32,511 nucleotides of DNA, from NCBI GenBank assembly GCA_002898315.1, contig BEHV01000017.1:1-32511 (forward strand), in the 5' to 3' direction. The translations under genes were made by a program, and so were the position numbers. This DNA is from a bacterium HR19. Lineage in GTDB: Bacteria > Calescibacteriota > Calescibacteriia > Calescibacteriales > Calescibacteriaceae. Below are positions 8,307-26,351 of the stretch, piece by piece (positions within the stretch are counted from its first letter, which is position 1; each line of letters starts with the position of its first letter). Below the pieces are notes generated by a model. The model was not told the DNA's origin and made no database searches. It was given only the letters and a program-made list of their open reading frames with translations.

Positions 8307-10085
8307 ATGTGTGGTATAGTAGGTTATATAGGTAAGACGAACGCTTTGCACGTTATTATACCATCGCTCCAACGCCTTGAATACAGAGGATACGACTCCG
8401 CAGGAATAGCTGTTATAAAAGATGGAGAAATAAGGTTGGCGAAAAAGAAAGGAAAGATTTCAGAACTCATATCTTTCGTTTCACGGATTGATTTTCCGAC
8501 TTTTTCTCGCGTAGGAATAGGACATACCCGCTGGGCTACTCACGGTCCCCCATCAGATAATAACGCACATCCACACCTTGAATGCTCCGGAAAAATCGCG
8601 GTCGTCCACAACGGAATAATAGAGAATTTCTCAGAGCTCAGAAAAAAGCTTGAAAAAAATCACAAATTCACCTCAGAAACAGATACAGAAGTTATAGCTC
8701 ATCTCATTGAAGACGCTTTGAAGGAAGTTGGTAGCTTTGAGAAAGCATTTGAGTTTGCGGTAAAACAGCTTGAAGGAACTTTCGCAGTAGTATCTATATT
8801 TTCTGGTGAGCCAGATAGGATTTTATGCGCAAGATACAAAGCACCACTTGTTATAGGTTTGTGGGATGAAAATGGAAACCTCGTCTCATCTGATATACCT
8901 TCGCTCCTTATCTTCACAAAAAAGATAATTCCTCTTTCAGACGGAGAGATAGCTATAGTAAAGGAGAACTCGGTTGAGATAAAAAAAGATGGTTTTCGTG
9001 TTGAAAGACAGCCGATTGAAGTCCCATGGGACGCTCAGCAGGCGGAAAAATCAGGGTTCAAACATTTTATGCTCAAAGAAATTTACGAACAACCTCATGT
9101 TGTTGTAGATACAACAGCCGAGTTTTTATCTCGGTGGGACGAGCTGAACCTAGGCGAATTTCAAAAAATAATAATAACTGGTTGTGGGACATCTTACCAC
9201 GCTGGTCTTTTAGGAAAACTGTGGATAGAACATATAGCAAAAATACCCGTTGAAGTTGATTATGCGTCAGAGCTAAGATACAAAGATTATATTCAGAAGA
9301 ACTCTCTTTTTATTGCTATAAGTCAATCGGGAGAGACCGCGGATACTCTTGAAGCGGTAAGAAGAGCGAAAGAAGAAGGTTTAAAAGTTGTGTCTTTGGT
9401 GAATGTTCTCGGTTCAACTCTTTCTCGTGAGTCAGATTTTGTTCTGCATACGAACGCTGGACCCGAAATCGGTGTTGCCGCTACAAAAACTTTTCTCTCG
9501 CAGATAACTGTTCTTTATCTTCTTGCGGTTTTTCTTTCCGGGCAGAGCAGAAAATCAAAAATGCTCTACGACATTCAGAAAGTCCCAGAAAAGATAGAGG
9601 AGGTTTTGGCTTTGAGTGATTTTATATATGAGATAAGCGAAGATGTCTCAAAGCTCAAGAACGCACTTTATCTTGGGAGATGGATATCTTATCCTGTGGT
9701 TATGGAAGGAGCGCTGAAGTTGAAAGAAATATCATATATACACGCTGAACCATATCCTGCAGGAGAGATGAAGCATGGACCCATAGCACTTGTTTCACCA
9801 TCTACACTTTCTGTATTCGTCGCCCCAAGAGATAGAGTGTTCAAGAAAACAATTTCAAACCTGCACGAGGTATCTGCAAGACACGGAAAAGTTATTCTGA
9901 TAACTACAAAAAATACAGATGTCAAAGATGTGTGGAAGAAAATAGAGATTCCAGATGTTGAGGAGTTTTTATCTCCTTTCCTTACCGTTCCCGTTCTTCA
10001 GCTTCTTGCGTATCATACCGCTACGATTTTGGGACATGACGTAGATCAACCGAGAAACCTCGCAAAGAGTGTGACCGTTGAATGA
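8307..10085 (+). CDS. glmS: Glutamine-fructose-6-phosphate aminotransferase (isomerizing)
   Basis: GlmS makes glucosamine-6-phosphate from fructose-6-phosphate and glutamine, the entry step to UDP-GlcNAc for peptidoglycan and lipid A. The protein has 592 residues. It starts MCGIVGYIG, so Cys2 is the N-terminal nucleophile of the glutamine amidotransferase domain (about 1-220, with GHTRWATHG and the NNAHPH segment). Two SIS sugar-isomerase domains follow (about 275-410 and 445-580; GCGTSYHAG and SQSGETADT in the first, PAGEMKHGPIAL in the second). The C-terminus DVDQPRNLAKSVTVE is the classical GlmS tail. I see no glmS ribozyme: only about 70 nt separate it from the divergent GH31 gene, and they are AT-rich. 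AAGAGGT about 12 nt upstream may serve as ribosome binding site. Confidence 0.97.
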   Translation: MCGIVGYIGKTNALHVIIPSLQRLEYRGYDSAGIAVIKDGEIRLAKKKGKISELISFVSRIDFPTFSRVGIGHTRWATHGPPSDNNAHPHLECSGKIAVVHNGIIENFSELRKKLEKNHKFTSETDTEVIAHLIEDALKEVGSFEKAFEFAVKQLEGTFAVVSIFSGEPDRILCARYKAPLVIGLWDENGNLVSSDIPSLLIFTKKIIPLSDGEIAIVKENSVEIKKDGFRVERQPIEVPWDAQQAEKSGFKHFMLKEIYEQPHVVVDTTAEFLSRWDELNLGEFQKIIITGCGTSYHAGLLGKLWIEHIAKIPVEVDYASELRYKDYIQKNSLFIAISQSGETADTLEAVRRAKEEGLKVVSLVNVLGSTLSRESDFVLHTNAGPEIGVAATKTFLSQITVLYLLAVFLSGQSRKSKMLYDIQKVPEKIEEVLALSDFIYEISEDVSKLKNALYLGRWISYPVVMEGALKLKEISYIHAEPYPAGEMKHGPIALVSPSTLSVFVAPRDRVFKKTISNLHEVSARHGKVILITTKNTDVKDVWKKIEIPDVEEFLSPFLTVPVLQLLAYHTATILGHDVDQPRNLAKSVTVE

Positions 10086-10091
10086 GATTTC

Positions 10092-10694
10092 TCAGATAAA
10101 GCCAAATAGCGATGGTTCTGGAATTATCAATGTTCCTTCGCTTGGGTTCCCAAGTTCCTTTGTTTTGTTTTCAAGAAAGAGTTTCGCTGTGAAAGCGCAG
10201 GCGATAGAATCAAACTCATCTTGACTCAATTCTCTTTCATGTTTTTCAGCAATAAACCCAACTTTAACAAAGAACTCAAAGATTTTTTTCTTGTCTTTCC
10301 TTGGTATTTTGAATATATCATATAGCGCTCCGGGGAAAACCTCAATCACTCTTATGTTTTTCAAGCTTTCTATTTTTCTTTTCAACTCAATTCCTCTTTT
10401 TGTGAGCATTCTCATAGGTCCCAAAGTTATGGGGAAAAATTTTATTTTCATTCTCATAAGTTCAATATCGCATTCTCTAAAATGTGTGGAGTTTTTTTCA
10501 TCTATGTTTTTTCTCCCTTTTGGGAGTGAGAGAGGAGCATCAATTGCTACGACTTTCAAATTCTTTATCTCGGAGACAACTTTTATTATCTCTTCATCTT
10601 TCTTGACTGTGAAGACATCTTTTACTTTTTTATCTGCTATGCATACGCCTGTTTTTCTGTTTTCGCTTCCAGCAAGGTCCAAACCTAAAACCAT
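10092..10694 (-). CDS. DUF429 family protein (RNase H-like fold)
   Basis: This is a conserved protein of the DUF429 group, predicted to adopt an RNase H-like fold; its biochemical role is not established. The landmarks are GLDLAGS at the N-terminus (acidic residue D6), VAIDAPLSLP (about residues 58-67), the RECD-x-E-L segment (about 82-88) and the late D-E-F-D-S-I-A-C-A-F-T-A helix (about 166-177). The acidic residues are in the places expected for metal binding. The ATG at 10694 is preferred, 4 nt after the upstream gene's stop. A TTG at 10718 would add eight residues and overlap that gene. It is probably co-transcribed with the THEP1-HAD gene, a hint (inference only) of shared nucleotide or nucleic-acid metabolism. 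Confidence 0.75.
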   Translation of the reverse strand: MVLGLDLAGSENRKTGVCIADKKVKDVFTVKKDEEIIKVVSEIKNLKVVAIDAPLSLPKGRKNIDEKNSTHFRECDIELMRMKIKFFPITLGPMRMLTKRGIELKRKIESLKNIRVIEVFPGALYDIFKIPRKDKKKIFEFFVKVGFIAEKHERELSQDEFDSIACAFTAKLFLENKTKELGNPSEGTLIIPEPSLFGFI

Positions 10695-10698
10695 ATAC

Positions 10699-11886
10699 CT
10701 ATTCAAGAACTTCTTCAAGTATGCTTTTTAACTCCTGAAAGTTTTCCACTTTTATATCTGTGTCTTGTAGGTCCTTATGAGTTGTCAGAACTCCTATGCA
10801 TTTTGCTCCTGATTTTAATCCCGCTTCAATTCCGTGTTGTGAATCCTCAATGACATAGCATTTTGAGGGTTTTGCTTTGAGTTTTTCTATTGCTTTGATG
10901 TAGCACTCTGGGTCTGGCTTGCCTTTTGAAATGTCTGAACCAGAAATAACGACATCAAAAAATTTTCCTATTCCAAGTTCTTCTGATATGAAATCAATGT
11001 TTTCTTTTGGAGTTGATGATACAAGAGCCATTTTGAATCCCTTTGACCAGAAGAACTCCAGAAACTCATCTGCTCCTTCTATTGGTTTTATCTTGCCCTT
11101 TGCGAGATTCCTGTAAATCTCTTCTTTCTCTTGACTGATTTTCTTTATCTCGTCTTCTGTTGCGTTTGGAATAAATCTTTTTATTATCAGGTCGTTTGTC
11201 ATTCCGAATGTCTCTCTGAAATCTTCTTCGGTAAATTTCACACCTCTTTTTTCCATCACCTCAAACCAAGATAGTTTGTGAAATTCAGATGAATCAATTA
11301 TAACTCCATCAAGGTCAATCAAGAACGCTTCTGTTCCCGTGAGCTTTTCAAGAGCTGTGATGTAAGATAGGTCAAATCCATCTTTATCTATGTCTTTAAG
11401 TATGACATCAAAGTTTTCAGATAAGATGTTTTTGAGTTTTTCTGCAAGTTCTTTTTTCACTGTTATTACGATTTGTGATGAGAGGTTTAAAATCTCTTTG
11501 AGCCACTTGACATCAAGATTTTTTGAGCAGGCAAGCTCCATAGGTCCAACCTCATCTAAGATGAACACCTCTGTTTTTTGCTCAATTTCCTCCCGCAGAA
11601 CCTCTTCAAACCTTTCTGGGAAAACGATGTATTTTCCATATTTGCAGTATATTTCGTTTATTTGTGAGATTTCTCTTTCTCTTATCGCAAATACCCTTTC
11701 TTTTTTCGTTCTTATCCCTTTTACATAGAACCCTTCTCTTGCTCTTTCTTTTCTCATCTCTGGTGTTATTACACCCGATAGTTGGAATCCGAGCATTTCC
11801 AATCTTTTTACAAGCTTTGAAATGAGAGTTGATTTCCCAGAACTCGGTTTCCCTGTTATCACAATACTTTTTCTCTTCTCCTCCAT
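10699..11886 (-). CDS. Fusion: THEP1-type nucleoside triphosphatase + HAD phosphatase
   Basis: A single 395-residue frame joins two enzymes. Residues ~1-178 match the THEP1 family of nucleoside-triphosphatases (P-loop GKPSSGKST at 12-20; Walker B VFILDEVGPMEL at 107-118, where the DEVG-x-x-E string is typical). Residues ~185-395 are a HAD-superfamily hydrolase of the beta-phosphoglucomutase/phosphatase branch: motif I DLDGVIID (D191, D193), a helical cap, motif II near VSSTPKE, the lysine motif KGKPDPE and motif IV EDSQHGIEA. All key residues of both halves are present, so both may be active. A nucleotide house-cleaning enzyme that removes successive phosphates is an inference; the HAD half could equally be a sugar-phosphate mutase or phosphatase. 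No Shine-Dalgarno sequence is seen; TATAAA ends 11 nt upstream of the ATG. The DUF429 gene follows in the same operon. Confidence 0.85.
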   Translation of the reverse strand: MEEKRKSIVITGKPSSGKSTLISKLVKRLEMLGFQLSGVITPEMRKERAREGFYVKGIRTKKERVFAIREREISQINEIYCKYGKYIVFPERFEEVLREEIEQKTEVFILDEVGPMELACSKNLDVKWLKEILNLSSQIVITVKKELAEKLKNILSENFDVILKDIDKDGFDLSYITALEKLTGTEAFLIDLDGVIIDSSEFHKLSWFEVMEKRGVKFTEEDFRETFGMTNDLIIKRFIPNATEDEIKKISQEKEEIYRNLAKGKIKPIEGADEFLEFFWSKGFKMALVSSTPKENIDFISEELGIGKFFDVVISGSDISKGKPDPECYIKAIEKLKAKPSKCYVIEDSQHGIEAGLKSGAKCIGVLTTHKDLQDTDIKVENFQELKSILEEVLE

Positions 11887-11933: not shown

Positions 11934-12569
11934 CTATTTATTTAGGTTTTTATCAGAGATTGACGCGATAAAACTTACGGTTTTTTCTATCACAAGTTTC
12001 AGATGCTCTGGATTTGAAAATCTGTGATCTCCTCCTTGAACTACAAAAAACTCTTTTGGACGATTTGCCATATCATATATTTTCCTTCCCTCATCTATTG
12101 GCACCGTCTCATCTTTATCTCCGTGTATTATAAGAAGGGGTGGATTTTTTTTGAGAGATTCTTCAATTTTTCTTTTGCCTATGTTTACAAATGGGGGGCA
12201 AAGAGCGACAACACCTTTTGACATTTCAGAGAGCAAAATCGCAATCGTTCCTCCAAGGCTTGAGCCGACAAAGTATACTTCATCTGAAAATTCGCTCTTT
12301 GCGAAGTTTATCACATTCAGAGCATCCTGTATTCGCCCTTCAAGGTCGTATTTATCTCCTTCTGACTCACCGCAACCCCTGAAATCAAACCTTATGAAAT
12401 TAAACCCGGCTTTTTCAAACCCTTCTCCCATCATTATGTATTTTGGACTATCTCTGAACGACTCAAAACCGTGAAAAGCTATAACAACCTTTTTGCTTTC
12501 GCTCTCTACTTTGTGTATTACCGCCGATAGCTCAGTATCTCCGCTGACTATCCGAGCTCTTATCTGCAT
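11934..12569 (-). CDS. Alpha/beta hydrolase (serine hydrolase)
   Basis: This is a compact 211-residue alpha/beta-hydrolase of the esterase/dienelactone-hydrolase-like type. The nucleophile elbow is G-S-S-L-G (S104), the acid is in HGDKDETVP (probably D153) and the histidine in GGDHRF (H182), so the triad is complete. The oxyanion region HGFESFRD (about 33-40) and RFDFRGCGES (about 60-69) are typical. There is no signal peptide, so it should be cytoplasmic. The substrate cannot be told; carboxyl esters or acyl groups are the usual targets. TATTAA ends 9 nt upstream of the ATG. The gene is divergent from the coiled-coil gene at 12688 and lies 47 nt upstream of the THEP1-HAD gene, with which it may share a transcript. 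Confidence 0.85.
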   Translation of the reverse strand: MQIRARIVSGDTELSAVIHKVESESKKVVIAFHGFESFRDSPKYIMMGEGFEKAGFNFIRFDFRGCGESEGDKYDLEGRIQDALNVINFAKSEFSDEVYFVGSSLGGTIAILLSEMSKGVVALCPPFVNIGKRKIEESLKKNPPLLIIHGDKDETVPIDEGRKIYDMANRPKEFFVVQGGDHRFSNPEHLKLVIEKTVSFIASISDKNLNK

Positions 12570-12571
12570 AG

Positions 12572-12733
12572 ATGGAATTTAATATTTTTGAGGAAGTATA
12601 TGCTAAACATAGAATTTGGGACGGAAAAATCAGAGCGAGGTTTTTTACTGTTTTGAAATTCAAACCAAATCAGAATAAGATAAATGTGTGTCTTCAAGGA
12701 AAAACGACAGGTTATCAAGGGTTGAAAGGTTAG
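12572..12733 (+). CDS. Possible small ORF or gene remnant upstream of the coiled-coil gene
   Basis: A 53-codon frame starts ATG-GAA-TTT at 12572, 2 bp beyond the start of the divergent hydrolase, and ends in TAG at 12731-12733. It overlaps the first 46 nt of the coiled-coil gene in another frame. Its codon use (AGA, ATA, GAA, AAA) and its mix of aromatic, charged and glycine residues look protein-like, with no low-complexity tract. No family was recognised and no ribosome binding site is visible. It could be a remnant of a longer gene, a leader peptide, or chance. Confidence 0.25.
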   Translation: MEFNIFEEVYAKHRIWDGKIRARFFTVLKFKPNQNKINVCLQGKTTGYQGLKG

Positions 12734-13425
12734 TAGAAAAAATCGCCGTTGAAATAAGGGAACTACGAGAATTTCAGAAGGAAACGACCGAGCAAATAAG
12801 AGAGCTGCGAGAATTGCAGAAAAAGACAGATGAGCTGATAAGAGAATTGCGAGAGTCGCAGAAGAAGACAGACGAGCAATTGAGAGAAGCGAGCAGACAG
12901 ATAAAAGAACTGCGGGAATCGCAGAAAAAGGCAGATGAGCAATTGAGAGAAACAGGGATTCAATTCTGTGAGAACGATAAAAAATTTGACAAAGTTGTAG
13001 ACAGCTGGGGAATGTTTGTAGAATATAAGCTTTGTCCTTTTGCTGAGGAGTTCCTGAGAAAAAAAGGATTTTCAGAAATTTTGAGCGCTCAAAGAGTAAA
13101 ATATGGAAAAGACGTTGATTTTGGTCCACTGATTATATCCCGAAAGAAAAAATTTATTCTTCTTATATCTACGAGAACGCACGTGAGGTTCCGAGAAGTA
13201 AACGAACTTCTGAAAGATATGAAAAGTTTTGAGTTTTTTATGAGAGAGGATTTTCCGGGTTATACTCTGTGTGGAGCGATAGCAGGAATAAGCTTTAGCA
13301 AGGGAGCAGAAAAATACGCAAAAAGAAAAGGGTTGATTCTATTCAAGGTTTCGGGAGAAGTGATGACCGCAGAAGAACCCAAAAAGCTGAGGGAAATCAA
13401 AATAGGCAAGGGGAATCAAAAATAA
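12688..13425 (+). CDS. Coiled-coil protein with degenerate PD-(D/E)XK-like C-terminal domain (DUF3782-like)
   Basis: This 245-residue protein has two parts. Residues ~12-90 form a long coiled coil built of 14-residue repeats (consensus ELRE-x-QKKTDEQLR). Residues ~97-235 resemble the C-terminal domain of DUF3782-type proteins, a PD-(D/E)XK nuclease-like fold common in thermophiles and cyanobacteria; the GAIAGISFSKGAEKYAKRKGL segment is the clearest match. The first acidic position is kept (DVDFG, D144), but the E-x-K strand of active nucleases is replaced by ILLISTRT (I160-S161-T162), so cleavage activity is probably lost. The start is a GTG at 12688; no ATG gives the full coiled coil. A terminator-like hairpin follows at 13458. 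Function is unknown; these proteins often occur in many variable copies per genome. Confidence 0.65.
   Translation: MSSRKNDRLSRVERLVEKIAVEIRELREFQKETTEQIRELRELQKKTDELIRELRESQKKTDEQLREASRQIKELRESQKKADEQLRETGIQFCENDKKFDKVVDSWGMFVEYKLCPFAEEFLRKKGFSEILSAQRVKYGKDVDFGPLIISRKKKFILLISTRTHVRFREVNELLKDMKSFEFFMREDFPGYTLCGAIAGISFSKGAEKYAKRKGLILFKVSGEVMTAEEPKKLREIKIGKGNQK
12760..12948 (+). repeat. 42-bp tandem repeat encoding the coiled coil
   Basis: Four imperfect 42-bp units (14 codons each, consensus ELRE-x-QKKTDEQLR) lie in tandem, the third and fourth separated by a 21-bp half unit (EASRQIK). The in-frame period, with a half unit of exactly one heptad, preserves the coiled coil and suggests expansion by duplication inside the gene. 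Confidence 0.8.
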
Positions 13426-19648: not shown

Positions 19649-22600
19649 ATGGGTTCTGCCGAAACTAAAAGATATAAAGTTGTGGATTTAGATGACCAGA
19701 GCGATAAAAATTACTTAAAATATAGAGTTATGGCTTATGATCAAAATTTCGTCCCAGCTTACTACATAAGCATGTGCCCTAACTGTGGCGGAGACATAAC
19801 ATCAGATAGATTGAGTTTGGGGTTCCCATGTGATAAATGTGTTCCCGAAATTCCAAAAGGCGCAACCTTTGAAGATATATTGCGAATCCTTGAAAATACA
19901 GGAAAACTCAAGAACTTCAAGAGAATTTACGATATTGAGAAGGAATCGGAGAGATTTGCGGAGTTTTTCAAGAAAATCGTTGGTTTTCCCCCTTGGTCTT
20001 TGCAGTTGGCGTGGGCGAAAAGAGTTCTTTCTTCTCAATCTTTTATGGCTCTCGCTCCAACCGGTGTTGGAAAAACAACTTTCGGCATGGTTATGTCTCT
20101 TTTCATCAGTGGAAAATCATACATAATAATGCCAACCAAACTCCTCTCAAAACTCCTCGTCAAAAGATTGATTGAATCGGCAGATAAAATGGGAGTGAAT
20201 AAAAAAATCCTCTTTGTTGATTCATCTAAACCCAGCTCAAAAGTTAGGGTTGTAGAAGATGACTACGATATTCTCATAACAACAAGCATGTTTCTCGCAA
20301 GAAATCAAGAACTCGTCAGCAGAAAAAAATTTGATTTCATCTTTATAGATGATGTTGATTCATACTTGAAGCAACCCAAAAATGTTGAAAGAGTGTTGAA
20401 ACTTATGGGGCTTTCAGATGAAGATATGCAAGAACTCAAAAACCTTATGAACCAGAAATTCTTCCTTGCAAGAGATAGAGAAAAAACCCTTGCCGATAAG
20501 ATAAAAGATTTCCAAAAAATATCTGAAAAGGTAGCAGAAATAAGAAGAAAAATCAGCGGGGTCTTGGTTGTCTCCTCCGCTACCGCAAAAGCAAGAGCAT
20601 CAACAATAAGATATTTCAGAGAAATTTTCGGATTTGAAATATCACCATATACAACAACTCTCAGAAATATTGAAGACACGGTATTATATTCCGACTACGA
20701 CATAAAACAGGGGGAAGAAATAGAGAAGGTCAAAATAAATGTGTTTGAAAAGGTAGCAGATGCAATAAGAAAGTGCGGAAAAGGTTGCTTCGTCTTCGTC
20801 TCCTCAGAATACGGGAAACAATCTGTATCAGAACTCAAAAATTTCCTGGTTACGAAAGGTATAAATTCCATAACCTATGAAGAGTTCAACGAGAAGAATC
20901 AAGAGAGATTCAGAGCAGGAGAGATTGATGTGGTGATAGGAATTTCATCTTTGAGAAATCCTCTGTGTAGGGGAATAGATATGCCAGATGCTGTGAGATA
21001 CGCTGTCTTCGCAGGTATTCCCAGATTTGTCTTCTCAATGGGAGAAATAGACGAACCCGCAAAACTTATAGGAGTCCTTTTCTCCCTAAGAAACATCCTC
21101 GGAAACGGAAAGAAAATTTACTCCTTCATAGAAACAATGAAAAAATACGCCGGAATGAGAGCAGAAGATATAGAAAAATATCCAGCTATAAAAAACAAAA
21201 TAGACAGTATAAAGGAGTTCATAAATGAAAGGTTGAAAGACCCGGAATTTATACAGAAAATAAGAGATTCAGAAGATGTTCCGATAAGGGTTGAGTCAGA
21301 TGGAAGATTCAGAATTGTTGTTGCGGATTCATCTGCTTATATTCAAGCTTCCGGAAGAACATCACGCCTTTATATAGGTGGATTATCAAAAGGTCTATCG
21401 GTTCTTATAGTAGATGACAGAAAATCTTTCTTCCAGCTGAAAAAGCGTTTGAAGTTAGACCTTCTTGAAAACCTCAATTTTAAGGATTTCTCGTCGGTAG
21501 ATATTTCTGCTGTCATTCAAGAGATAGATAAAGATAGAGAGAACATAAAAAATATCATAAAGGGTGATTTAACTACTATATCTCGTATTTCATCTGTCAA
21601 GCCACCGAAGTCGGCGGTTTTTATAGTTGAGTCCCCAAATAAAGCGGGAACAATAGCGAGGTTGATAGGCAAACCAACAAAAAGAAAAATTCGCGTCTAT
21701 AACGACGGTGAGACCGTTGATGTTTGGGAAGTATCAAGAGGAGATATGAACATCACAATACTTGCGTCAGGTGGGCATATATTTGACCTCCCTTTTTCCT
21801 ATTCAAGAAGAGGAGATGAGAAAGGCGAGAAGTATGGAGTTATATATGAGAGTAAAAACGGAGAGGGATTTCTGTTCGTTCCAAAATATATGGCTATAAA
21901 AAGGTGCAGGTCTTGCGGTGAAAATTTCTTTGAAGAGAACGCTTGCCCGTGGTGCGGTTCAACAGAATTTGAAGACAAAACAAAAATAATCAGAGCTATT
22001 GAGCAGGTATGCTCAGAAGCAGATTATATATTCATAGCAACAGACCCCGACCACGAGGGAGAAAAAATAGCGTTTGACATCTTCCTCTCTGTTCCCAAGT
22101 TCAAAAAAGATATAAAAAGGGCAGAGTATCACGAGGTAACAAGGCGCGCGATTTTCAAAGCAATAGATTCCCCAAGAGATATAAACCTATCTCTGGTCAA
22201 AGCTCAGATAGTAAGAAGGATAACCGATAGGTGGGCCGGTTTCGTGATGAGCGAGTACCTTCAAAAGAAGGAAGATAAAATCTGGCTTTCCGCTGGTAGA
22301 GTTCAAACTACTGTTCTGGGATGGCTCGTTGAAAGAGAAAAACAGATGAAAGAAAAAATCGGAAACCTTGAATTCAAAGGAGGAGATTACGGAATCCACG
22401 ATTCAATTAAGATTCAAGATAAATCTCTTGCAAAGGAGATATCTTCATCTATCAGAAAACTTAAGGGAAGAAAGAGGAAAGATCCTCAACAAGATGATGA
22501 AAGATTGAGGAACGCAAAAATAAAGGTATCTCTTGAACTCAAAGAGACATTTCCCGCAGAACTGAAACCTCAACCCCCTCTCAATACCGCTGATATGCTC

Positions 22601-23473
22601 AAAGAAGCATTTTCTAAATTCAGGTTCTCTGCAACTCAGACCATGACATTAGCTCAGAACCTATTTGAAGCTGGACTTATAACCTATCACAGAACCGACT
22701 CCCATCATGTTTCAGATGTAGGAATATCTATCGCCAGGGACTTCATTTCAGAAAACTATGGGGAAAAACTTTTTGCTCCACGAGTTTGGGAGGAGGAAGG
22801 AGCTCACGAGTGCATCCGCCCCACGAAAAACCTGACGCCAGACGAACTCTCAATATCTGTAAAAATAGGCAGTATCTCTTTGCCAAAAGAAGCTGTTAAT
22901 CTCTACGAAATCATATTCACAAGATTTATGGCTTCTCAGATGACCCCAGTTAAAGTCCTAAAAGGAATAATAGAGGAAAAAGTGTCGTGGAATGGTATAG
23001 ATGAAAATAAACTCAAAAAACAAATAGAGGTTGTGCTCAAAGTTCTTGAGGATGGTTGGAATAAAATTCTGTTTTTGCCGATTCCGAGATTCGCCGAACA
23101 CATTTTAGAAAAAAGAAAGATTGATTTTGAGACGCCAGATTTCAAGTTCTCTTTCGTCCCACCTGTCCCACCTTATACTCAAGCGAGTTTGGTGGACGAG
23201 ATGAAGAAAAAAGGTATAGGACGTCCTTCAACATGGGCGTATATAATAAAAACCCTGCTTGACAGAGGATACTGCATAGAAAGAAGCGGATACATCATTA
23301 TCACCAAGCTCGGAAAAGAAATATACAACATACTTTCTTCCCACCCGAAATACAAAATCTATACCACAGAGGACTACACAAGAGAGCTTGAGGAAAAAAT
23401 GGATAAGGTTGAGCGAAGAGAAGAGGACTATATGAAGATTCTTGAAAATCTTTTCAAAGAGCTTTTCTTGTGA
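19649..23473 (+). CDS. rgy: Reverse gyrase
   Basis: Reverse gyrase uses ATP to introduce positive supercoils and is the hallmark enzyme of hyperthermophiles. The 1274-residue protein is complete. It has an N-terminal zinc finger (C43, C46, C61, C64); an SF2 helicase-like half with Walker A APTGVGKT (K142), the D-D-V-D box (234-237) and SSATAK; and a type IA topoisomerase half. That half has TOPRIM motifs VESPNKAGT (E661) and DPDHEGE (D799, D801), a second zinc finger (C753, C756, C766, C769) and the DNA-cleaving tyrosine Y1013 in GLITYHRTDS. GAHECIRPT and GIGRPSTWAYI complete the type IA set. The finger in the TOPRIM domain is usual for the family. Both halves look active. It is monocistronic, with a putative -10 box and no Shine-Dalgarno sequence. 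Confidence 0.97.
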   Translation: MGSAETKRYKVVDLDDQSDKNYLKYRVMAYDQNFVPAYYISMCPNCGGDITSDRLSLGFPCDKCVPEIPKGATFEDILRILENTGKLKNFKRIYDIEKESERFAEFFKKIVGFPPWSLQLAWAKRVLSSQSFMALAPTGVGKTTFGMVMSLFISGKSYIIMPTKLLSKLLVKRLIESADKMGVNKKILFVDSSKPSSKVRVVEDDYDILITTSMFLARNQELVSRKKFDFIFIDDVDSYLKQPKNVERVLKLMGLSDEDMQELKNLMNQKFFLARDREKTLADKIKDFQKISEKVAEIRRKISGVLVVSSATAKARASTIRYFREIFGFEISPYTTTLRNIEDTVLYSDYDIKQGEEIEKVKINVFEKVADAIRKCGKGCFVFVSSEYGKQSVSELKNFLVTKGINSITYEEFNEKNQERFRAGEIDVVIGISSLRNPLCRGIDMPDAVRYAVFAGIPRFVFSMGEIDEPAKLIGVLFSLRNILGNGKKIYSFIETMKKYAGMRAEDIEKYPAIKNKIDSIKEFINERLKDPEFIQKIRDSEDVPIRVESDGRFRIVVADSSAYIQASGRTSRLYIGGLSKGLSVLIVDDRKSFFQLKKRLKLDLLENLNFKDFSSVDISAVIQEIDKDRENIKNIIKGDLTTISRISSVKPPKSAVFIVESPNKAGTIARLIGKPTKRKIRVYNDGETVDVWEVSRGDMNITILASGGHIFDLPFSYSRRGDEKGEKYGVIYESKNGEGFLFVPKYMAIKRCRSCGENFFEENACPWCGSTEFEDKTKIIRAIEQVCSEADYIFIATDPDHEGEKIAFDIFLSVPKFKKDIKRAEYHEVTRRAIFKAIDSPRDINLSLVKAQIVRRITDRWAGFVMSEYLQKKEDKIWLSAGRVQTTVLGWLVEREKQMKEKIGNLEFKGGDYGIHDSIKIQDKSLAKEISSSIRKLKGRKRKDPQQDDERLRNAKIKVSLELKETFPAELKPQPPLNTADMLKEAFSKFRFSATQTMTLAQNLFEAGLITYHRTDSHHVSDVGISIARDFISENYGEKLFAPRVWEEEGAHECIRPTKNLTPDELSISVKIGSISLPKEAVNLYEIIFTRFMASQMTPVKVLKGIIEEKVSWNGIDENKLKKQIEVVLKVLEDGWNKILFLPIPRFAEHILEKRKIDFETPDFKFSFVPPVPPYTQASLVDEMKKKGIGRPSTWAYIIKTLLDRGYCIERSGYIIITKLGKEIYNILSSHPKYKIYTTEDYTRELEEKMDKVERREEDYMKILENLFKELFL

Positions 23474-24774: not shown

Positions 24775-25671
24775 TCAAAAAAACTTTCTTTGAAAAATGA
24801 ATTGTTTAATTCTTCTTTCAGCAAGAGACACATAATTTTGGTTGATTTCATATCCGACAAATTTCCGGCTGGTCATAAGACAAGCGATCGCCGTCTGACC
24901 ACTTCCCATAAATGGGTCAAGGACAATTTCACCTTCAAAAGTGTAAAGCTGGATAAGGCGATAAGGGAGTTCAACCGGGAAAGGTGCGGGATGTCCTATT
25001 TTCTTTGCAGATTCTGGTGGAAATGTCCATACACTTTTTGTAAAATTAAGAAATTCTTCTCTTGATATAGTGCTTTTTCTCTTGAAAGGATTTTCTCTTT
25101 TTAAAGATGATTTTGAAAAAACGAGTATATACTCATGCTGGTCACGAAGGGTAGGATTCTTTGGAGAAAGCCAGGAACCCCAAGCGGTTGATGGACTTCC
25201 TCCACCTGCTTTATTCCAGATGATTTCTCCTCTCATCAAAAATCCAAGTGAAATCATATCTTCTATTACATAAATGTGAAGTGGTAAATATGGCTTTCTT
25301 CCAAGGTTTGCAATGTTTATCGCTAATCGCCCACCGGGAACAAGAACTCTTTTAACTTCTGAAAAAACCCTTTTTAAAAAGTCCCTGTATTCATTTAGTG
25401 TTAAGTCATTATCGTATTCCTTTCCAACATTATAAGGTGGAGATGTTACAACAAGATGAACAGAATTATCTGGCAATTCTTCCATCTTCTCACTTGATTT
25501 GCAGAAAATCTTATTTATAAATTCATCGGGAATTTTATTTTCAATATACTCAACTTGCTCCTCCTTTGGCAAATCCTGATATAGTTTTCTTGAATAGAAA
25601 ATTGAAGCGTCATGATTTATTCTACCAGGAGAACCAAAGCTGCTTGTTTTAGTTCCTATTCTTTTTCCCAT
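24775..25671 (-). CDS. Type II DNA methyltransferase, probably N4-cytosine (beta class)
   Basis: This is the modification enzyme of a type II restriction-modification pair. The catalytic motif IV TSPPYN (76-81) comes before the AdoMet-binding motif I DPFMGSGQT (about 252-260), the order of beta-class methyltransferases. S/T-PPY favours N4-cytosine over N6-adenine as the target. The N-terminal segment with TKTSSFGSPGR and HDAS-x-FYSRKLY is shared, as far as I recall, by a group of archaeal and thermophile N4-cytosine enzymes such as M.MthZI. At 298 residues it is full length. The ATG at 25671 overlaps the end of the endonuclease gene by 16 nt, so translation is probably coupled, with the endonuclease upstream. 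The recognition site cannot be read from the sequence; CGCG (by analogy with ThaI) is a guess. Confidence 0.9.
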   Translation of the reverse strand: MGKRIGTKTSSFGSPGRINHDASIFYSRKLYQDLPKEEQVEYIENKIPDEFINKIFCKSSEKMEELPDNSVHLVVTSPPYNVGKEYDNDLTLNEYRDFLKRVFSEVKRVLVPGGRLAINIANLGRKPYLPLHIYVIEDMISLGFLMRGEIIWNKAGGGSPSTAWGSWLSPKNPTLRDQHEYILVFSKSSLKRENPFKRKSTISREEFLNFTKSVWTFPPESAKKIGHPAPFPVELPYRLIQLYTFEGEIVLDPFMGSGQTAIACLMTSRKFVGYEINQNYVSLAERRIKQFIFQRKFF

Positions 25672-26351
25672 AGCTCAATCCACCTCCTGAAAGGCTCATA
25701 TATATCAATTTCCTCTTTTTCAGGTCTTTGCCAGCATATTCCAATTCTATTTGTTTGCTTATGGCTTATAAGTTCGCTCAGAGCAATATTACTTATTTCA
25801 ACACCTCTCGGATTAGTTCCTTTCCTTGGTGTAAATATATATTTTTCCTTGCCAATTTTTGTAAAAATTTCTCTTTGAACTTCAAGCGGAATATAATAAA
25901 AGCTACCTTCTCTGTTCCAAACAACCTCAACAAGTAAAAGTTCGCTATTAGGTTCATACGAATTAAAAAATTCATGAACTTTCTTCCAATCAACGGTCCA
26001 TATCAATTTTACTCCGCTTCCAGAGAGTTTTTCAGGATTTCTCGGGAAGACACCTGTTTTCGTTTTAATTGAAATAGGAAATCCAAATAATCTAATATCA
26101 AAATCAGGAGAAGATGGGTCTCCCAACTCAACGTTATCCGCACCAAATTTATAAATCAGCAAAGCAATTAAAATCTGTTCCCTTAATGTTCCTATTTCCA
26201 TTCCGACTTTCCCACCTTTTGATGCTTCTTTCTCAGCGAGGTAAAACATATAAGGCAACTTCTTTTTTATTTTCTCTACCGTGCTTTCGTCCTCAAAAAT
26301 ACTTTTATCATTCTTAATTCTGAATCTTGCGAATAAATAAAAAACTGCAAT
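25656..26351 (-). CDS. ThaI-like type II restriction endonuclease, probable ATT start
   Basis: This gene lies immediately upstream of, and overlaps, the DNA methyltransferase gene. The protein resembles the ThaI family of restriction endonucleases: K-L-P-x-x-F-Y-L-A-E, M-E-I-G-T-L-R-E, PISIKT, GVKLIWTVD, YYIPLEVQ and GTNPRGVEIS are landmarks I associate with that family. The likely PD-(D/E)XK-type centre is S-P-D-F-D...S-I-K (D85, K96), preceded by E52. The frame stays open to a stop at 26397-26399 but has no ATG, GTG or TTG before the TTG at 26256-26258, which would cut off the conserved start. GGGAGGG (26360-26366), 8 nt before an in-frame ATT at 26349-26351, makes ATT the probable start (231 residues). 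The TTG gives 200 residues. Cleavage site is unknown. Confidence 0.78.
   Translation of the reverse strand: MAVFYLFARFRIKNDKSIFEDESTVEKIKKKLPYMFYLAEKEASKGGKVGMEIGTLREQILIALLIYKFGADNVELGDPSSPDFDIRLFGFPISIKTKTGVFPRNPEKLSGSGVKLIWTVDWKKVHEFFNSYEPNSELLLVEVVWNREGSFYYIPLEVQREIFTKIGKEKYIFTPRKGTNPRGVEISNIALSELISHKQTNRIGICWQRPEKEEIDIYEPFRRWIELWEKE

Follow-up and report, generated by a model that had tools for sequence, protein, structure and literature searches.

A predicted THEP1-HAD fusion protein in a deep-branching lineage of heat-adapted bacteria

What does it mean that a THEP1 nucleoside triphosphatase is joined in one protein to a phosphatase of the HAD type? The question is raised by a gene of bacterium HR19 (Calescibacteriaceae; assembly GCA_002898315.1, contig BEHV01000017.1), of which 32,511 nucleotides were analysed (here called the window). 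Many thermophiles, and animals too, have THEP1 proteins, which bind and slowly split nucleoside triphosphates (NTPs) and whose in vivo function was unknown when they were characterised (PMC1079890; PMC2700126). A first-pass annotation had described the gene as one uninterrupted frame for both enzymes, and this was borne out. The frame encodes 395 amino acids (aa), and its Pfam matches to PF03266 (aa 8-161, 99.5 bits vs cut-off 23.9, E 2.5e-28) and HAD_2 (aa 189-366, 127.9 bits vs cut-off 23.8) lie far above the cut-offs. A HAD domain resembling beta-phosphoglucomutase (beta-PGM) spans aa 186-386 (E 6e-37). All motif residues were found at the positions named beforehand, including the HAD motifs at D191/D193, VSSTPKE (289-295), KGKPDPE (around 321-327) and EDSQHGIEA (347-355). 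In the window's own genome, no further THEP1 gene exceeded the family cut-off. The fusion gene and its parts are:

10699..11886, minus strand: THEP1-HAD fusion gene, single uninterrupted ATG-start frame
11404..11865, minus strand: THEP1 / NTPase_1 domain (PF03266), aa 8-161
11827..11853, minus strand: Walker A GKPSSGKST, aa 12-20
11533..11556, minus strand: Walker B with catalytic Glu, DEVGPMEL, aa 111-118
11332..11403, minus strand: junction, aa 162-185, from alignment and predicted model
10729..11331, minus strand: HAD phosphatase domain, beta-PGM-like with C1 cap (HAD_2, TIGR02009), aa 186-386

For conservation analysis, the window's genome (G000) was compared with four other genomes of its family (G001 to G004), giving five genomes in three genera. 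A full-length fusion was present in all five. In the searches, identity to the window's protein was 52% (G001), 91% (G002), 55% (G003) and 53% (G004), and in a multiple alignment of the five fusions (52-91% identity) the catalytic residues of both halves were invariant. Separate halves in close relatives, named in the annotation as the sign of a sequencing-error join, occurred in none of the five genomes, and neither half was lost in any. When genome contigs were scanned with the fusion, the sole match was the 91% identical relative (metagenome-assembled genome contig JAUQOU010000062.1). Between G000 and G002, the ratio of nonsynonymous to synonymous substitution rates (dN/dS) came to 0.10 over the whole gene. 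The THEP1 part alone had 0.15, the HAD part 0.08 and the junction, where few sites were available, 0.07; these values point to purifying selection on both halves. The halves have diverged at different rates, with identities of 43-46% vs 60-65% when the three more distant relatives are compared. In trees, the fused THEP1 domains formed one clade (support 99/98) and so did the fused HAD domains (100/100), a pattern that fits one fusion event preceding the diversification of the family. The HAD tree contained duplicate copies of the fusion proteins under other locus identifiers, and a count of five label changes is an artefact of these. An assembly or sequencing error that joined two adjacent genes can be given practically no weight: the same in-frame fusion is carried by five separate genomes at 52-91% identity, and nothing was found in favour of an error beyond the family genomes being fragmented drafts. 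This reading was rejected, and the gene is taken to encode a real, lineage-fixed two-domain protein that derives from a single fusion.

How the two domains are held was examined at the junction. Between D165 and A187 there are no insertions or deletions (indels) in the five fusions, and Y175, L179, E180, T183, T185 and A187 are invariant. In a predicted full-length model (predicted template modelling score 0.81), the last THEP1 helix (171-183) continues straight into the HAD domain, whose first strand lies at 187 after a modelled spacing of about four residues. Together with the indel-free junction, this suggests that the THEP1 and HAD domains are held in a fixed arrangement.

The THEP1 half belongs to THEP1/NTPase_1 (PF03266) by the curated cut-off, by Walker A, by a Walker B Asp-Glu pair with the catalytic Glu of the additional strand, catalytic glutamate (ASCE) class, and by its fold. 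Among 18 THEP1 sequences, G12, G17 and K18 (Walker A) and D111, E112, G114 and E117 (Walker B) are invariant. D111/E112 correspond to D106/E107 of Aquifex aeolicus THEP1 (aaTHEP1; aq_1292), and E107 is the Glu that marks ASCE-class NTPases (PMC1079890). A separate model of the N-terminal domain (predicted local distance difference test 94.9) matched aaTHEP1 (1ye8) with Z 18.1 (root-mean-square deviation 2.8, 157 residues) and human NTPCR (2i3b) with Z 16.2 (deviation 3.9, 172 residues). The next unrelated fold reached Z 9.0, and thymidine kinase was among the weaker matches (Z 8-9). As modelled, the N-terminal domain is a RecA-like fold with the THEP1 beta-sheet extension, and its sequence identifies it as an ASCE P-loop NTPase domain with intact catalytic residues.

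The fused domain shares its fold, Walker A, the catalytic Glu of Walker B and an RxGF motif with aaTHEP1 and NTPCR, but these are single-domain proteins, whereas the THEP1 studied here sits in a two-domain protein. Canonical THEP1 has DEIGKME and a C-terminal NR motif; the fusions have DE[VI]GPME, and NR is replaced in all five. The NR motif is a trait of the canonical subgroup that PF03266 membership does not need, and it is also absent from another PF03266 member (L068). With 101.5 bits, the fused domain stays under the 156 cut-off of the NCBIfam NTPase equivalog NF010248 and is not filed there. From the Walker B change and the loss of NR, cosubstrate recognition is probably altered in the fused THEP1 half.

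The HAD half belongs to HAD subfamily IA (C1 cap) by its HAD_2 score, motifs I-IV and fold. D191, D193, S290, K323, E347, D348, H203 and W207 are invariant in the five fusions. In the full-length model, helices 200-262 form a helical C1 cap between motifs I and II, and the half matched C1-capped HAD phosphatases with Z 23-26. This fold is common to the TM_1254 phosphorylated-carbohydrate phosphatase (3kbb), beta-PGM (1lvh) and CbbY (4uar), and by sequence, too, TM_1254 (3kbb, E 1e-25) and beta-PGM are the nearest solved relatives. With NCBIfam models, the best listed score was obtained for the PGMB-YQAB subfamily TIGR02009 (136.7 bits, under its 153.35 cut-off), followed by beta-PGM TIGR01990 (112.7, under 189.4), a pyrophosphatase (99.8), hexitol phosphatase (83.7) and the noncanonical nucleotidase YjjG TIGR02254 (52.6, under 159.9). 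The broad subfamily model TIGR01509 was the only one shown whose cut-off the half reaches. The annotation had proposed nucleotide channelling, for instance from nucleoside monophosphate to nucleoside; as the HAD half scores best with sugar-phosphate models and poorly with the nucleotidase, this proposal is left without specific support.

The numbering and roles of residues in beta-PGM serve as background here. D8/D10/H20/W24 of beta-PGM align with D191/D193/H203/W207 of the fusion, whereas R49 is replaced by an invariant Asn231 and K45 aligns to a gap. These replacements argue for a phosphatase rather than a mutase. Beta-PGM identity was rejected, as neither the K45/R49 residues nor the TIGR01990 score fit. 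Mutase activity is thus unlikely, and the HAD half would be a phosphatase acting on a small, probably sugar-phosphate-like compound. End-healing of the PNKP kind was also rejected: a capped HAD suits small substrates, and no PNK3P-type HAD domain was found among the fusion's Pfam matches at E up to 0.1.

For distribution beyond the family, PF03266 was searched on a panel of 386 bacterial genomes and a profile of the fusion on 386 genomes, largely the same panel; four more phyla of 7, 7, 82 and 100 genomes were added. THEP1 is common in archaea, and the searches were restricted to bacteria. In the PF03266 panel search, the frames inspected were the conspicuously long ones among the strong listed matches. 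No other THEP1+HAD frame was seen in these about 580 bacterial genomes; for the phylum of G352 (7 genomes), where nothing was found, the search had no positive control. Plasmids gave no record covering 80% of the fusion query, and viral contigs gave no fusion and one HAD-only relative. No paper combining THEP1, HAD and fusion was found in the searchable open-access literature, in line with the annotators' remark that the pair was not known as an established architecture. The fusion is a new pairing of known parts, so far seen only in one deep bacterial lineage, represented here by five genomes.

The nearest HAD relatives found (G402, G254 and G400; 37-44% identical) belong to another phylum and stand alone, lacking a THEP1 half; in the G402 frame, an internal Met-Met start follows 64 additional N-terminal residues. 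Their neighbours are unrelated: a glycosyltransferase gene adjoins the one in G402, and by eye arginine decarboxylase and agmatinase genes adjoin those in G254 and G400. THEP1 is joined to other partners elsewhere, and the window's genome has a further HAD fusion:

L061:1290-2981, minus strand, and L068:1746-3095, plus strand: THEP1 fused to an S-adenosylmethionine (SAM)-dependent methyltransferase, other bacterial lineages
L062:820-2520, plus strand, and L069:1429-3057, plus strand: THEP1 at the C-terminus of a longer protein
L072:780-2258, minus strand: HAD + TrmI/GCD14-like fusion, contig C8 of G000 near 87.3-88.8 kb

In L061 and L068, PF03266 is joined to an unrelated enzyme as in the THEP1-HAD fusion, but a SAM methyltransferase takes the place of the HAD, and their THEP1 domains branch apart from the fused clade. 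The N-terminal part of the L062 and L069 proteins had no Pfam match and appears by eye to be a multi-pass membrane region. The L072 protein (492 aa) combines a HAD (aa 10-197) with a TrmI/GCD14-like tRNA methyltransferase (aa 304-470), and its conservation is suggested by HAD matches in G001, G002 and G003, which lie in frames of 500-518 aa. Two divergent THEP1 genes (L063:1668-2153, minus strand; L060:1223-1957, plus strand) adjoin, by eye, xanthine dehydrogenase/molybdenum hydroxylase-like genes, a possible functional context for a divergent THEP1 subgroup.

The genes next to the fusion in the window are:

11934..12569, minus strand: alpha/beta hydrolase (S33-like, PF12146), upstream of the fusion
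10092..10718, minus strand: DUF429 protein (PF04250, 32.4 bits)

The alpha/beta hydrolase adjoins the fusion in four of the five genomes (G000, G002, G003, G004); in G001 it is on another contig. In G003 the hydrolase and fusion frames (8820-9431 and 9428-10606 of L056) overlap by four bases, and those listed for G004 (L057) do so by twenty, a figure that depends on the start chosen. Such overlaps suggest translational coupling, and the hydrolase is a probable operon partner of the fusion. DUF429 had been put forward as the partner and does lie directly downstream in the window's genome. Its listed frame starts with TTG at 10718, and an ATG at 10694, just past the fusion stop, is the likelier start. 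In the co-occurrence check, adjacency to the fusion was confined to G000 and the closely related G002; DUF429 is unlinked in G001 and G004 and was not found in G003. With adjacency in two of five genomes only, DUF429 was rejected as a general functional partner. Among 45 loci, the majority taken with flanks of about 1.5 kb, no stand-alone THEP1 was found beside a HAD, DUF429 or alpha/beta hydrolase; the window's proteins served as single-sequence queries, so that distant homologues could be missed.

Elsewhere in the window, the protein encoded at 12688-13425 (plus strand) repeats ELRESQKKTDEQLRE-like heptads and had no Pfam match; in G002, a relative of this frame whose repeats follow another pattern sits next to the fusion operon. 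A reverse gyrase (helicase, Toprim, topoisomerase and reverse gyrase zinc finger) at 19649-23473 (plus strand) points to a hyperthermophilic bacterium. Positions 24775-26258 (minus strand) hold a restriction-modification pair of a ThaI-family endonuclease (PF15514, 214.8 bits) and an N6/N4 DNA methylase.

As the best explanation of the whole, it is tentatively proposed that the protein is a fixed fusion in which a HAD phosphatase is under NTP-dependent control or positioning by THEP1; both the substrate and the coupling are inferred. The HAD half would dephosphorylate a small phosphorylated metabolite, more likely sugar-phosphate-like than a nucleotide. The THEP1 half would bind an NTP and hydrolyse it slowly; its role would be to control or position the phosphatase in a nucleotide-dependent way rather than to act ahead of it as a high-flux step. 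The alpha/beta hydrolase of the probable operon may work on the same or a neighbouring metabolite. What favours control or positioning over the metabolic feeding step suggested earlier is the turnover of aaTHEP1, which at 5 (ATP) and 9 (GTP) x 10^-3 per s is slow for feeding a pathway (PMC1079890). The lack of confirmed kinase activity in that protein likewise fits a control module. Several points weigh against this proposal. A fusion by itself does not demonstrate coupling, and both the HAD phosphatase and the THEP1 NTPase activities are predictions. It may also be that aaTHEP1 turned over slowly for want of its proper cosubstrate. The THEP1 active-site region is of low confidence in the full-length model, so the relative domain orientation is not established. 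As the junction helix belongs to the THEP1 fold, folding alone may account for its conservation.

That the halves do separate jobs, were joined by chance and stayed together since co-expression was harmless, or stabilising at high temperature, is fairly unlikely. The HAD-TrmI/GCD14-like fusion in G000 suggests that the lineage may tolerate HAD fusions freely, and the halves diverge at different rates; yet the junction is indel-free, under purifying selection and not a loose linker, and no family genome has lost either half. Consecutive catalysis is unlikely as well. Here the THEP1 half would dephosphorylate a triphosphate (an NTP, a damaged NTP or, for example, thiamine triphosphate) and the HAD half would take a further phosphate from the product. 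THEP1 yields a diphosphate and HADs of this kind mostly act on monophosphates, so that the two steps would not be directly joined; the low score of the nucleotidase model and the very slow turnover of aaTHEP1 also speak against it. Both active sites are intact, however, and HADs fused to other enzymes can use their product, as in MtlD (7ocn), a mannitol-1-phosphate dehydrogenase with a HAD phosphatase of the same fold class. The HAD domain of MtlD is a close structural match, but it is N-terminal and has a dehydrogenase as partner, whereas that of the fusion is C-terminal and joined to THEP1. The THEP1 orthologue group (NTPCR) has been put in thiamine pyrophosphate breakdown, by pathway assignment and not by assay (PMC12209360). 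A reversible switch, with the THEP1 half putting the gamma-phosphate on a small acceptor and the HAD half removing it, is decidedly unlikely. Some RecA-like folds are kinases, with thymidine kinase among the weaker fold matches, and the pocket deviates from canonical THEP1 (K/R to P in DEIGxMEL, NR lost), so that a new cosubstrate is conceivable; kinase activity of aaTHEP1 could not be confirmed (PMC1079890).

For THEP1 biology, the bolder claim is that the fusion exposes the partner reaction of THEP1, an NTP-driven gamma-phosphate step on a specific metabolite also used by the HAD half. This is quite improbable; if true, the HAD substrate would reveal the long-sought THEP1 cosubstrate. If the halves are merely co-expressed, the protein would be an ordinary lineage-specific fusion. 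A HAD half that can be screened by ordinary phosphatase assays and is locked to THEP1 offers a practical entry to THEP1 function. The fusion, found in a small deep-branching lineage of heat-adapted bacteria, is a handle on the old THEP1 puzzle, not its solution.
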